This document shows positions 23,232-62,511 of a DNA stretch of 64,000 nt, in pieces. The DNA is taken from the NCBI GenBank assembly GCA_022497155.1, contig MU385732.1, positions 372,001-436,000 on the forward strand, written 5' to 3'. Positions within the stretch are counted from its first letter, which is position 1, and each line of letters opens with the position of its first letter. Both the position numbers and the translations under genes were made by a program. The stretch is from Whalleya microplaca (lineage: Eukaryota; Ascomycota; Sordariomycetes; Xylariales; Xylariaceae). The notes under the pieces are model-generated. The model had not been told where the DNA came from and made no database searches. It saw only the letters and a program-made list of their open reading frames with translations.

Positions 23232-24034
23232 TCATAAGGTATTATGTATGTGAGCATGCCCATGATCCAGCCCAAGTGCTAAGAAACCACTGGCATTAAA
23301 CACCCTCCACTCCTCCACAAACTTCTTTAGCGTATTGAAGTCTCGACACTGGCGCTGAAAACCGCTTCCCAAGAACTCATGTTCTCTGCCTATGGCCGGC
23401 TCGACAGTGGAATCCGCTGAGCACGTCAGACTTTGCAGGAGATAATCGAAACAATGCGCAGCATGAACCGTCCGGTTTTTACCAAAGTCGAATTCCTGGA
23501 GATCATCGGATTGTGAATAGTAGGCGCGCCGCAAGATGTATAAGCAGTGCAATTGGTGGAATGCAGTAGGTATAGACGGTTGGGGGGCGAGATGGCCGTC
23601 TTTGAAATAGCCAAGCCCATCTGGTGGTAGGTAATCGATCAGTCGGATGTTGGGTAAAGCAATATTCACGGCAACTTACTTGGTATTAGAGCATCCCAAA
23701 TCGGTTCCGACTCTGCACCAGATCCCGGGCCATGTGGAGGTCTTTTGGAAAAGGGAGATGAATAAACGAATTTTCGTTGAACGGTTGGGAGTGGTATACG
23801 TGTTGCCGTACTCGGAAACACATCGTTGCCTCGTACTTGGGGTGTACTCTTTGTGTAAAACACCCCAGCAGCAAAGCCTGCCAATACAGCAAAAATGAAA
23901 CCGACAACGATGAACAAGTTACAAATACGCACCAACGTCGTCGACTCTCGCCAGGAAGATGCTGAAGATATGTCAAAGGGCTCCTCTAAATCGTGCTCTT
24001 CGCCATTGTTTGTGAATAGATCATAGCTGTGCAT
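23232..24034 (-). CDS. UstYa-family (DUF3328) oxidase-like protein 1
   Basis: Two exons, 24034-23680 and 23620-23232, with a 59-bp intron (GTAAGT to CCAG). Splicing joins DALIP to NGLGYFKDG and restores the family's W..L.P.G.GY motif. The product is 247 residues. A cytosolic N-terminus of about 36 residues is followed by one membrane segment (about 37-58) and a lumenal domain. The domain carries two copies of the HxxHC signature: HQLHC (140-144) and HAAHC (171-175), followed by LTCSADSTVEP. UstYa-type proteins catalyse oxidative cyclisation of ribosomal peptides in dikaritin pathways (ustiloxin, phomopsin, asperipin), and others act in different fungal pathways. It lies 1.05 kb from the precursor-like gene at 25085. 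Earlier in-frame ATGs at 24070 and 24130 are possible starts. Confidence 0.87.
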
Positions 24035-25084
24035 TGTTCTGCAAAGGCTCAACCTCCGGAGAAGTTTCATCACGTATTCTTCTAGGTATTGTCTAAAGTG
24101 ACCAGTGATACAAGTAACGATACAATTCAAACTGAGGTATTAACTCCCGCAAGGCGTAATCTTGAATGTAGGACAACTTCTTCCGCGACAGAAGAACCAA
24201 AGGTCGCAGAGATGATCACAGTGTCAAGCAGGCTTTGAGATCCTATCATATGTTGTACGTGGCTTGCATGTCGTCGTAATAGTTTCGTCCGTATCGTAAG
24301 CGTCTGATCTATAGTTTTAAGCCGAACGGAAAGTTTTTGATTGGCTGGACGATATATGTTCAACCCTATAGAAACCAGGGGATACTTTCTAAGGGCATCT
24401 ATTACGATGTCTTCGGTGAGTTATGCATGGTATCTGCCGGCTTTGGGCGATGTATTATATATCAAACATGTTTTGATAATATATGATTTAGGTGGCTTCG
24501 CGGGTTCTTGCCTAATTACTTCTGTCAGACACCAATTGCACAAGCTACGTTTGAACAGCCTCATTGCCTTGTAGCTCAGAGTCCTGAATCCTTCATTGTA
24601 ATGTCAGTGAGAAGCGATCAAGAAGCCTCTTAGTGGATGTACATGGTCCAGGTGACTGCAGTCTACCTAGTGAGTCATTTTACGGCTGCGGGTTACAGCC
24701 TCGGGGAATAGTTAGGATGTTTTGGTTATGTCAGACGCGGAGCTGACTTGTGGCGTAAGTGAACCAAACTGCTTCATGCTTCCTCGGGCGTCATATTTGT
24801 ACCGAAATTGTACCACCTACTGAATGCGTTCTCCTACCCCGTGGACGGCAGTTGCATATTGCAGGACATCCCAGGCCAGAAGAGAGAAACATAAGTGTAC
24901 ACCGAGCCTTACATAAGGTAAAAGCTGACGTCCTGGTGACTTCAAAGAAGGCCTTCTCCCCAGTCACCAGCATAACCGGACGTTAACAAATTCATCACCA
25001 TCATCCCCGGTCCTCAGTCGAGTCAAACATCTCTGCCTTAAGCTAATCAACATCAACGGTATTAGCATCAGCTCCACGAAGAAA
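24035..25084. promoter_or_regulatory. Divergent intergenic region between UstYa-1 and the precursor gene
   Basis: About 1 kb separates the divergently transcribed oxidase and precursor genes and may hold shared control elements. I see no gene in it; the short open frames lack motifs. I could not identify a specific regulator site. Confidence 0.35.
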
Positions 25085-25372
25085 ATGCAGTACCTCAAGC
25101 TATGCGCCCTTGTCCTCCAACTTTCCGCCATTGCTGTCGCGGCCCCTGCTACTAGTAAGTGCCAATCCCCAATGCTATACGCAAATGCGTGTGCTGAGTA
25201 CTTAGGCATGGACGGCGTAAGCATTTTGCAGCGCGGAGAAGCGGATATTGACGTTTCAGAGGCCTTCAAGCGAGAAGAACCCAGTGTCGATGTTGGAGAT
25301 GGCTTTAAGCGAGAAGAACCTAGTGTCGATGTGGGAGATGGCTTCAAGAAGCGTGCTGATAACTCCGAGTGA
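25085..25372 (+). CDS. Dikaritin-like RiPP precursor peptide with tandem Kex2-bounded repeats
   Basis: A small gene with a typical signal peptide (MQYLKLCALVLQLSAIAVAA). It probably contains a 51-bp in-frame intron at 25155-25205 (GTAAGT donor, GTGCTGAGT branch-like site, TTAG acceptor), giving a 78-residue precursor; unspliced it would be 95. After the leader come three 13-14-residue units, each ending in a dibasic Kex2 site: GEADIDVSEAFKR, EEPSVDVGDGFKR and EEPSVDVGDGFKKR, then a short tail ADNSE. Signal peptide, tandem cores separated by KR, and UstYa-family neighbours on both sides form the diagnostic set for dikaritin RiPP precursors (UstA type). Secretory-pathway Kex2 protease would release SVDVGDGF-containing peptides for cyclisation. 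The core lacks Tyr and is acidic, unlike ustiloxin or asperipin. A small secreted effector or pheromone-like peptide is the alternative. Confidence 0.75.
   Translation: MQYLKLCALVLQLSAIAVAAPATSKCQSPMLYANACAEYLGMDGVSILQRGEADIDVSEAFKREEPSVDVGDGFKREEPSVDVGDGFKKRADNSE
25155..25205 (+). other. Predicted 51-bp intron of the precursor gene
   Basis: GTAAGT donor, branch-like CTGAG and a TTAG acceptor. Length is divisible by three and no stop lies inside, so the unspliced frame stays open. Removing it places the leader (APATS) directly before MDGVSILQRGEADIDV. Strongly matches the intron grammar of neighbouring genes. Confidence 0.65.
25259..25349 (+). repeat. 39-bp tandem repeat encoding the peptide cores
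   Basis: Two 39-base units starting at the CGA codons (about 25270 and 25309) differ at three positions only, all third codon positions (CCC/CCT, GTT/GTG, TTT/TTC). The encoded peptides are therefore identical. A more diverged unit precedes them. Confidence 0.9.
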
Positions 25373-25686
25373 TTCTAAGGATTATAGAATTATACATCTC
25401 ATGTACTAGGTAGTTGAAATACATAAAATGTGGCAGATTGGAGATCACCGAAGTTGAATAACCTAGTACTTATGGGGATACCAGGGGTAAGGAGTAAGAA
25501 ACTGTTTTTCCTACATATGACGTCCGTACAATAGCTTTGGCAACAAGTTGGTCTGGAAATATGGACATTCATTTGAATCTTGATTCTAACATTCATTTAT
25601 TGCACTGGCTTGATTAGTTTCGTGATGTAGTTTCACTCTGATGGCCTAAGATGCTAGACATTCTTATCTACCTCGTCATTCGAGGG

Positions 25687-25688
<2 letters not shown>

Positions 25689-25735
<47 letters not shown>

Positions 25736-25753
25736 AAAAAAAAAAAAAAAAAA
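25689..25753 (+). repeat. Poly(A) tract, 65 bases with one C
   Basis: Uninterrupted A run from 25689 except C at 25735. It lies between the 3' ends of the convergent precursor and UstYa-2 genes. It may be a natural homopolymer or a retroposed tail; length is likely error-prone in the assembly. Confidence 0.9.
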
Positions 25754-25792
25754 CCTGCTAACCTATACTGAATAGAAGAACAAGGTCTGCCT

Positions 25793-26785
25793 TTAGATAT
25801 TCTCTATAGACTCCTCTGGTAGTCCTACCATAAACTCATCTGTAGGCACATAATCGTCCGTTATAACGTACCCACTTTCTGGAGGACAGTGTTTGAACCT
25901 CTCCAGAATAGGTTTGCCATCTCTTTCTGGGTCTTCAGGGCGCTTATAGCACGCTGTATGCTTTTTTGCAAAAGTCTCCAGTTCCTCCCAGCTGCGGCAC
26001 TTCCGGTGCTGTAAAAGTCCACTTACGACCTCTTTCCGATGCTCCGTAGCTCGTGGTGTGTCGTCGGCATCGCACATGATCTGTCTGCGCAAGGCATCCA
26101 TGCAGTGACTAATGTGGTGCCAATCGCGAGATTGCGGATTCCCATGCTTGTATTCGACCAGAGAGATATGGATAATCTTAAGGCAATGTAGGTTGTGGAA
26201 TGCGTGCAAGATGTATATGCCTTTGCTCTGGTCCCATGGGAATCTTTGAGCAGTCCGAAGGCCATGTTGAGCTGCCCATTCATCAGATAGCGCGACTACA
26301 CCGTAATCAATATTTATGTCACGCCATAACTCTTCCTGAAGAGTCTCGTTATCGGAGCTGTACTGCGTCACGCGGACGTACGGTTCTTCGCGGTTACGCT
26401 GAAGGTTTGCGTATTTTGACGGGCTCTCGCTTTTCAACGCCAGATAGGATGAAAGGACAAGAAACACAAGGTTCAATAATGTTGATGTTAATAACAGGCC
26501 AAGCAATAACTTGGGCCTGGGGCTTTGGCATGGACGAGTTGACGGCAGAGGACACCTCTTGTCATCACCGCTAACTCCCTCCACATCAGCGAGAAGCCCG
26601 AGGTCCTCTCCGCGCTGGGAGATGAGGTCCATGTCGTAATCTAAAACTTGTTGTGTGTGCTCAAACGGGGGATTTTTCAGATACTTTGCAATATGCAGAT
26701 TGTCATTGAATAGAGCTTTGCTTTCGTAGCACGTAAGAGCGAGATATTGCTCTGCTTGTTTATTTGGGGAGGGGGGCAAGACCAC
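25793..26785 (-). CDS. UstYa-family (DUF3328) oxidase-like protein 2
   Basis: A single-exon frame of 330 residues. A membrane segment (about 92-116, LLLGLLLTSTLLNLVFLVLSS) precedes the lumenal UstYa domain. The two HxxHC motifs are HNLHC (197-201) and HISHC (224-228), the latter followed by CDADDTP, which matches the family's C.AD.T. The usual W..I...YGVV and FPWDQSKGIYILHAFH elements are present. The N-terminus is longer than usual; Met52 (codon at 26632) is a plausible alternative start that gives a normal length. It is convergent with the precursor gene, 420 bp away. Two UstYa-type genes around a repeat precursor mirrors the UstYa/UstYb pair of ustiloxin biosynthesis. The C-terminal extension after the second motif is rich in Cys and charged residues. 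Confidence 0.87.
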   Translation of the reverse strand: MVLPPSPNKQAEQYLALTCYESKALFNDNLHIAKYLKNPPFEHTQQVLDYDMDLISQRGEDLGLLADVEGVSGDDKRCPLPSTRPCQSPRPKLLLGLLLTSTLLNLVFLVLSSYLALKSESPSKYANLQRNREEPYVRVTQYSSDNETLQEELWRDINIDYGVVALSDEWAAQHGLRTAQRFPWDQSKGIYILHAFHNLHCLKIIHISLVEYKHGNPQSRDWHHISHCMDALRRQIMCDADDTPRATEHRKEVVSGLLQHRKCRSWEELETFAKKHTACYKRPEDPERDGKPILERFKHCPPESGYVITDDYVPTDEFMVGLPEESIENI

Positions 26786-60801: not shown

Positions 60802-62511
60802 ATGTGTGACCTATACGATCGCCAGCTAAACAATAAAGAACGCGAAGTACGGATTCTAGAGCTATACGAACCGGTTCATGACCGCGCCAAGTATCAGTTC
60901 AAATGTCGCCTTCGGCATGACACACTCAACAAGTCGCCGTCCTACGCCGCGCTCTCATACCACTGGGGCGACATGATATACCAACAAGACCTTATGGTCG
61001 ATAGCCGCGTGGTAAGAGTCTCGTCAAACCTACTGGCAGCTCTTGAGCAACTGTGGAAGATGAAACAGCGCCTCATATGGGTCGACTTCCTGTGCATAAA
61101 CCAGAGTAATAACGAGGAGAAAAGCGGCCAGGTCAAAATGATGGATACCATATTTGCGAAGGCCCAGTGGGTCTTCGCATGGCTGGGCCCTGAGGCCAAT
61201 GGCTCTGATCTGGCTATGGAAATGCTCGGAGCGCCGCAAGCAAGCAGTCAACAGTGGGAGTGGCCGGTGGAAGTCGAGACCGCGTGCGACGCCATTATCC
61301 GACTCTTCAGCCGCCCCTACTTTGAACGCATGTGGATCATCCAGGAGATCTGTCGAGCACAGGACCTCATGGTCGTGTGCGGTCAGCACGCTGTGGCATG
61401 GAAGATACTATCGAAGAGGCTAGACTTGCTCGGCAACTCAGTGCCGGCCCAATATGCCAGGCATCTGATCTCACAGCTACGTTGGATGCGGCGTCGTATC
61501 CAACACCGAGATGAAGCTGACGCCGACACAAGGCTGATTCCACTGATCATCCTGAGTCGGAAGGCGCTGGCCAAGGATCCCCGTGATAAACTGTATGCGC
61601 TTCTCGCGCTCGCGGAAGATGGGCGTGCGATAATACCGACGCCGAACTACTTAGACCCTGTCGAGAAGGTGTTCCAGGATACGGCTAGAGGCATGATCGA
61701 AAAGAACGACCGAACGGATGTGATCTTGCTGGCTCATCGCTCCCGGGGCCAGAGGAACCTGCCCTCCTGGGTGCCTGACTGGGCAAATCTGACCTCACGA
61801 CCGCCATTATGGGTTGAAGAGAGTCTTGTCAAAAAGCGCCCCATAATGAAGGCGCAAAATATAGTCCATGGTGACGTTCTTGAAGTGCGAGGCTACCGTC
61901 ACGACGTGATAGTCGACTTCCTCGACCTAGATGGTTTTGATGTTAAGCCTGCCAAGAAGGACCCGCACTCTGAGAATCTAAAGTGGCAAAGCATTGTAGT
62001 TAACCTCTGCATGGGTTTGACCACGGGTACGACGACCGATTGCGGCATACAAGATGTTGTGCAAGTGATGTACGAACTATGCCGCGATAGTGACGACATT
62101 GAAGACGCTGTGAAAACACACTTCTCAACCTGGATACTTCACAATAGGCGCCGTATGGTCGGTCTCCGCACCATCCAACAACATCTTGAGAAGCACGTCC
62201 GGATGATTGGGCCTAGTAGTCGTCGAGATAAGGAGTCCCGTAAAGGTGCACGCCAGACACTGGAAGAAGGTTTCGAGAGACTCGAAAGACTGCGAATGAA
62301 ATTTGCGGTAACTAAGGACGGCTCATTGCGAGTTGTATATCGAGCTGCAGAAAAGAATGACCACATCTATATACTAGAGAACTGCCCGCTGCCGGTGGTT
62401 CTACGCCCGAGTAATCGCGACCGCTTTCGGTTCATCGGGGAGGTCTTCGTGTCTGAACATTTCAAGAGCACGCGATATAAGAGCGAGTCTAAGTACATAT
62501 CAATTGAGTGA
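60802..62511 (+). CDS. HET-domain (heterokaryon incompatibility) protein
   Basis: A 569-residue single-exon protein starting MCDLYDRQLNNKEREVRILE. The in-frame extension upstream begins only with TTG, so the ATG at 60802 is the start. The HET domain covers about residues 40-200 with its three blocks: SPSYAALSYHWGD; RLIWVDFLCINQSNNEEKSGQV, then FAKAQWVFAWLGP; and FERMWIIQEICRAQ. The remainder is helical and ends in the usual HET-family C-terminal region with LPSWVPDWANLTSRPP. HET proteins trigger growth arrest or cell death when incompatible hyphae fuse, and relatives act as fungal innate-immunity-like sensors. No NACHT, NB-ARC or repeat domain is fused. Intact, with normal codon use. Confidence 0.88.
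   Translation: MCDLYDRQLNNKEREVRILELYEPVHDRAKYQFKCRLRHDTLNKSPSYAALSYHWGDMIYQQDLMVDSRVVRVSSNLLAALEQLWKMKQRLIWVDFLCINQSNNEEKSGQVKMMDTIFAKAQWVFAWLGPEANGSDLAMEMLGAPQASSQQWEWPVEVETACDAIIRLFSRPYFERMWIIQEICRAQDLMVVCGQHAVAWKILSKRLDLLGNSVPAQYARHLISQLRWMRRRIQHRDEADADTRLIPLIILSRKALAKDPRDKLYALLALAEDGRAIIPTPNYLDPVEKVFQDTARGMIEKNDRTDVILLAHRSRGQRNLPSWVPDWANLTSRPPLWVEESLVKKRPIMKAQNIVHGDVLEVRGYRHDVIVDFLDLDGFDVKPAKKDPHSENLKWQSIVVNLCMGLTTGTTTDCGIQDVVQVMYELCRDSDDIEDAVKTHFSTWILHNRRRMVGLRTIQQHLEKHVRMIGPSSRRDKESRKGARQTLEEGFERLERLRMKFAVTKDGSLRVVYRAAEKNDHIYILENCPLPVVLRPSNRDRFRFIGEVFVSEHFKSTRYKSESKYISIE

Follow-up and report, generated by a model that had tools for sequence, protein, structure and literature searches.

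What is made by a locus in which a small gene for a secreted repeat protein lies between two genes of the UstYa family? Such an arrangement occupies positions 23,232 to 26,785 in a stretch of 64,000 nucleotides from the ascomycete Whalleya microplaca (GenBank assembly GCA_022497155.1, contig MU385732.1, positions 372,001 to 436,000 of the forward strand), referred to here as the window. We argue that the locus is very probably a compact dikaritin-type cluster for a ribosomally synthesised and post-translationally modified peptide (RiPP), and that its product is probably a cyclised peptide. A UstYa protein, containing the DUF3328 domain (PF11807), encoded near a precursor is the class-defining enzyme of dikaritin-type RiPPs (PMC12048977; here and below, literature statements refer to the portions of each article that were covered). 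In the window, the precursor gene has such a gene on either side, with UstYa-A 1051 bases and UstYa-B 421 bases away.

The repeat precursor and its core

In the predicted precursor of 78 residues, a hydrophobic leader is followed by the units GEADIDVSEAF-KR, EEPSVDVGDGF-KR and EEPSVDVGDGF-KKR and then by a few closing residues. This layout, with Kex2 sites between tandem cores behind a hydrophobic N-terminus, is that of dikaritin-type precursors, the leader being judged by hydropathy. The unspliced frame is also open and would give 95 residues with unchanged cores. Using the window as background, similar peptides bounded by dibasic sites were found in 1 of its 457 stop-to-stop segments (at least 50 residues, six frames), namely the precursor alone, and a looser repeat scan again returned a single match. 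Between the two EEPSVDVGDGF units, 3 of 33 bases are different, and all three changes are silent. Only 21 of the 99 possible single substitutions are silent, which gives an expectation of about 0.01 for three silent changes out of three if substitutions were random, and the peptide itself therefore appears to be under constraint.

Apart from its own unspliced form, the precursor matched one protein in a database search, P0002 (ENA, 130 residues, E 5.1e-3), where four copies of VD[VI]GDGF stand ahead of KR or RR. When the alignment of the precursor with P0002 served as query, P0123 from Rostrohypoxylon terebratum was found (E 0.31), with five units ending in IAVADGF, IGLGDGF, VQVGDGF, VDVGDGF, and VDVADGF. 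Common to the three precursors is the core motif [VI]x[VIL][GAS][DE][GA]F, whose commonest form is VDVGDGF. Counted ahead of a dibasic site or the protein end, this relaxed motif has three copies in the Whalleya precursor, four in P0002 and five in P0123; shuffling each precursor 20,000 times gave at most one copy, and none was present in 120 other fetched proteins. A chance origin of the repeat was ruled out by the shuffled-sequence counts together with the single match in the window. The stricter motif [VI]D[VI][GS][DE][GA]F, drawn from the Whalleya precursor and P0002, has one copy in P0123. Phe is required by the motif but can also be counted apart from it: it precedes all three dibasic sites in Whalleya and four of five in each of the other two precursors (11 of 13 in total). 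Tyr is absent from the three Whalleya cores as well as from the nine motif copies of P0002 and P0123. The initial annotation had described a secreted-type precursor with units ending in KR or KKR, which agrees with the three units and the hydrophobic N-terminus seen here; it had also placed the core within EEPSVDVGDGF, which is the right region, although comparison of the three precursors indicates that the putative core can be narrowed to the seven shared residues VDVGDGF.

The locus tag of P0123 (F5B19DRAFT_468784) follows that of P0010 (F5B19DRAFT_468783), which is the R. terebratum homologue of UstYa-B with 67% identity. Because the tags are consecutive and the contigs of both have the same size (158033), the P0123 precursor is probably linked to this UstYa-B homologue. 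As for P0002, its N-terminus is signal-peptide-like and continues into an apparent unspliced intron at about the same place as the one in the Whalleya gene. This position, predicted from the protein only, would support a common origin with the Whalleya precursor.

The two flanking UstYa proteins

Both flanking proteins match PF11807 with scores far above the cut-off of 25 bits (79.9 bits for UstYa-A and 80.2 bits for UstYa-B), and each contains two HxxHC motifs and one strongly hydrophobic segment ahead of the domain, at approximately residues 40–58 in UstYa-A and 42–60 in UstYa-B. The paired motifs had been pointed out in the initial annotation, which had also set the DUF3328 profile search beforehand as a check that could overturn its proposal; both proteins pass. 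Its extension of UstYa-B to position 26,785 reaches too far upstream. We place the start at 26,632, at the Met that begins a 76%-identical homologue from Hypoxylon trugodes; the public model of 355 residues begins further upstream, and the window protein is 100% identical to F5B20DRAFT_166791 of Whalleya microplaca. At 31% identity over 88 residues, UstYa-A and UstYa-B are too divergent to have arisen by recent duplication. An A-rich tract of 65 bases with a single C (25689–25753) is located between the 3' ends of the precursor and UstYa-B genes. The features of the locus are listed in Table 1.

Table 1. Predicted features of the locus, in window coordinates
Feature	Position	Strand	Details
UstYa-A, 247 residues	23232–24034	−	exons 24034–23680 and 23620–23232; PF11807 match 3.2e-22
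UstYa-A, first HxxHC motif	23544–23558	−	HQLHC
UstYa-A, second HxxHC motif	23451–23465	−	HAAHC
Kex2-type repeat precursor, 78 residues	25085–25372	+	predicted gene model; ATG at 25085, stop ends at 25372
Precursor exons	25085–25154 and 25206–25372	+	predicted intron 25155–25205, 51 nt, GTAAGT...TTAG
Signal-peptide-like segment	25085–25144	+	residues 1–20 (...AIAVAA); hydropathy maximum 1.86 over 19 residues
Unit 1	25247–25273	+	core variant IDVSEAF, then KR
Unit 2	25286–25312	+	core VDVGDGF, then KR
Unit 3	25325–25354	+	core VDVGDGF, then KKR
UstYa-B, 279 residues	25793–26632	−	single exon; PF11807 match 2.6e-22
UstYa-B, first HxxHC motif	26183–26197	−	HNLHC
UstYa-B, second HxxHC motif	26102–26116	−	HISHC

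At E ≤ 0.001, a protein search with UstYa-B matched 124 proteins. This total counts the public entry for UstYa-B itself, and the match after it is 76% identical; the best 120 of these 124 span many Xylariales along with Aspergillus, Penicillium, and others. When the window sequence is aligned with 46 homologues, His146, Cys150, His173, and Cys177 are invariant in all 47 sequences, and His149 and His176 are kept in 46, so that both HxxHC motifs are complete in 46 of the 47. The sole exception is the homologue P0102, in which each motif carries Tyr instead of its second His (HNLYC and HVSYC).

An AlphaFold2 model of UstYa-B, of moderate confidence (mean predicted local distance difference test score 71, predicted template-modelling score 0.61), places the motifs on adjacent helices (residues 143–162 and 171–187), in line with the paired motif of CctR, the DUF3328 hydroxylase of cyclochlorotine. 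No homologue of solved structure was matched by sequence, and none of the 24 listed fold matches to the model reached E ≤ 0.001. Like UstYa-A and UstYa-B, CctR has a membrane helix and an HxxHC(x)nHxxHC motif, a likeness of motif description and not of sequence, whereas its substrate is a non-ribosomal peptide (PMC12435403). The motif is a copper site in CctR, where motif mutants are inactive (Huang et al. 2025, PMC12435403), two coppers are bound per monomer, and the inserted oxygen derives from O2. By analogy, we infer that the HxxHC pairs of UstYa-A and UstYa-B may support copper-dependent oxidation with chemistry as in CctR.

A proposed route from precursor to cyclised peptide, and the alternatives

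In the pathway that we propose, the precursor would enter the endoplasmic reticulum via its signal peptide, Kex2 in the Golgi would cleave after KR or KKR, and a carboxypeptidase would remove the basic residues, so that each released peptide would terminate in the core [VI]DV[GS][DE][GA]F. UstYa-A and UstYa-B would serve as membrane-anchored lumenal oxidases, each with a dicopper site provided by its two HxxHC motifs, and would oxidise C–H bonds of the core and crosslink it within the secretory pathway. For this cluster, the cut by Kex2, the involvement of copper, ring closure, and the choice of crosslinked residues are all predicted steps. In victorin, the side chain of a C-terminal Phe is joined to an internal Leu (Ford et al. 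2022, PMC9233826), and for this reason our first guess for the likeliest crosslink would be a bond from the C-terminal Phe, there being no other aromatic residue in the core, to an internal Val or Ile. Provided that the peptide is cyclised at all, we give such a Phe-to-aliphatic bond a roughly even chance. Calculated [M+H]+ values are 1150.4898 for EEPSVDVGDGF and 1148.4742 for its form less 2H, 708.3199 and 706.3042 for VDVGDGF, and 1152.5055 and 1150.4898 for GEADIDVSEAF; a cyclised first unit would thus equal the linear second unit in mass.

As for the locus described here, the victorin cluster contains UstYa-type genes. The victorin precursor of Cochliobolus victoriae is likewise multi-core and likely processed by Kex2, but victorin is chlorinated and extensively modified (PMC9233826), whereas the Whalleya core is acidic and Gly-rich; the two are likened by description and not by precursor sequence. 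Ustiloxin and phomopsin share with the Whalleya locus the signal peptide, the tandem Kex2-bounded cores and the UstYa homologues beside the precursor (PMC10512285 for ustiloxin). In these compounds, however, an N-terminal Tyr is crosslinked to an internal Ile (PMC9233826), and the Tyr-free Whalleya core differs from their subgroup in this respect. The asperipin-2a cluster has a single UstYa-type gene, and its product two links based on Tyr (PMC12048977, PMC9233826), compared with two UstYa genes and a core with Phe as sole aromatic residue in Whalleya.

The Whalleya precursor also fits the description of the Kex2-processed repeat proteins (KEPs) compiled by Umemura 2020 (838 types; PMC7329392). 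A DUF3328 gene is found nearby for 1758 of the 7878 KEPs in that survey, with 1.7 such genes on average, and Tyr is present in 65.6% of the repeats of these 1758, which leaves about one-third without it. Because of this proportion, and because victorin is cyclised via Phe, a core without Tyr is not unusual. The initial annotation was thus correct in calling the core acidic and Tyr-free, but it went too far in concluding from this that the product is likely to be a new class member. The strings GDGF, DVGDG, and VDVG are absent from the main text of PMC7329392, whose supplementary tables may list the core, and GDGF is absent from the main text of PMC6339444. VDVGDGF, IDVGDGF, VDIGDGF, and DVGDGFKR gave no match in open PMC full text, a corpus that leaves supplements and most subscription papers outside reach. 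Within the literature covered, this suggests that the core has not been reported previously, while its kind is already known.

Several observations weigh against assignment of the locus as a dikaritin-type cluster. P0002 and P0123 are each related to the precursor by weak sequence similarity, and the E value for P0123 is not significant alone. Since all three precursors went into deriving the relaxed motif, it speaks for repeats that are not due to chance, yet is no proof in itself of a shared origin. The adjacency of P0123 and P0010 is read from locus tags and contig size, and introns and start codons in the gene models are predictions. Of the 643 candidates scored in the search with both precursors, three proteins reached E ≤ 10. 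That search covered predicted proteins of suitable length having exact words in common with the query, among which short spliced genes may be absent; no partner precursor for the remaining UstYa-B homologues was found in this limited set. Tyrosinase, which ustiloxin and phomopsin use (PMC7329392), was not detected among the 27 window open reading frames (ORFs) scanned with Pfam, nor was a methyltransferase, transporter, or S41 peptidase family; these ORFs are a chosen, unspliced subset in which genes may be missed. Asperipin-2a is accepted as this type with neither a tyrosinase nor a peptidase gene in its cluster (PMC12048977). The dikaritin-type locus proposed in the initial annotation is well supported by the outcome of the DUF3328 search and by the probable linkage, in another genus, of a same-motif precursor to a UstYa-B homologue.

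The main rival to ring closure is that UstYa-A and UstYa-B hydroxylate, desaturate, or otherwise tailor the peptide released by Kex2 and leave it open. CctR, a DUF3328 protein, acts as a hydroxylase (PMC12435403), DUF3328 proteins take part in the desaturation of phomopsin residues (Sogahata 2021, via PMC10512285), and the core lacks Tyr, the residue that is crosslinked in most known cases. We consider this outcome rather unlikely, with ustiloxin, phomopsin, asperipin-2a, epichloecyclin, and victorin all described as cyclic in two reviews (PMC9233826, PMC10512285), victorin via Phe, and with Phe ahead of 11 of the 13 dibasic sites. In a second alternative, the precursor would yield a linear secreted peptide that is left unmodified, like a pheromone or hormone, and the UstYa genes would be neighbours by chance; for 6120 of the 7878 KEPs, the 15 closest genes indeed include no DUF3328 member (PMC7329392). 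Pheromone-type KEPs, however, are almost all without DUF3328 neighbours (PMC7329392), whereas two UstYa genes flank the Whalleya precursor and P0123 shows a probable link of the same kind, which makes a chance neighbourhood very improbable. We regard as less probable still that the cluster is decayed or silent and the peptide no longer made. In favour of decay, the repeats number just three, the first being a divergent variant (IDVSEAF), and the A-rich tract lies between precursor and UstYa-B. Against it, no reading frame of the three genes is interrupted, UstYa-A and UstYa-B each retain a pair of HxxHC motifs, and repeats 2 and 3, of 11 residues each, differ from one another by silent base changes.

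Having weighed these alternatives, we retain the dikaritin-type cluster with a cyclised product as the preferred reading. A much broader claim would be that the locus founds a separate and widely conserved family of acidic Phe-crosslinked peptides, that the UstYa-B group of 124 proteins acts generally on xDVGDGF-type cores and ties Phe to Val or Ile in them, and that the ring serves in metal binding or signalling and not as a toxin; this we find improbable. The D-x-G-D-G arrangement of the core, reminiscent of calcium-binding loops, would be what gives the ring such a role.

Genomic setting and significance

For paralogous precursors, a protein search of the genome returned this locus only, as two exon matches, and a DNA pattern for VGDGFK occurs at one further place (C2:569195) as a single copy. 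A Kex2-type P-domain is encoded at one locus, and PF11807 has 34 matches in the same genome, counted by exon. Repeat-precursor-like ORFs are present in 4 of 19 ten-kilobase stretches around other PF11807 matches, three with Tyr and one with Trp. At L020 (G000:C27, about 286410–287418, minus strand), a Tyr-containing repeat ORF near UstYa matches repeats SDADAATKYIAD 25 times without variation, with KR after most copies. L023 (G000:C13, about 917000, minus strand) has a signal-like start and lies approximately 1.7 kb from UstYa matches; its units are three near-identical copies of TNDYPKYGSASEYEAVNN, the last slightly different. Two dibasic-bounded units, DEDNYFEPGSFA and DEETYFEPGSFA, are found at L026 (G000:C4, about 381976), some 1.3 kb from a UstYa match. 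L028 (G000:C78, about 61335–61524), with four KR-bounded units that contain PPLWDGGV about 2.3 kb from a UstYa match, is a second Tyr-free candidate in this genome, with Trp present. In the window, a gene for a fungal rhodopsin-like membrane domain (PF20684, 27222–28471) adjoins UstYa-B, and a gene annotated as a peptidase of plants and bacteria (PF04450, 13046–14017), approximately 9 kb from UstYa-A, is probably unrelated to the cluster.

According to a 2022 review, only five dikaritins had been reported (PMC10512285), compared with the 1758 KEP genes that have a DUF3328 gene nearby (PMC7329392). A survey of the Hypoxylaceae described one kind of RiPP cluster, ustiloxin-like, and called the full diversity not estimable (PMC8403587). 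The most interesting feature of the Whalleya locus is the probable pairing of precursor and enzyme. The list of UstYa-B homologues names genomes in which partner precursors can be sought, and a locus of three genes with a Tyr-free core offers a small and clean system for asking which residues UstYa enzymes crosslink beyond Tyr.

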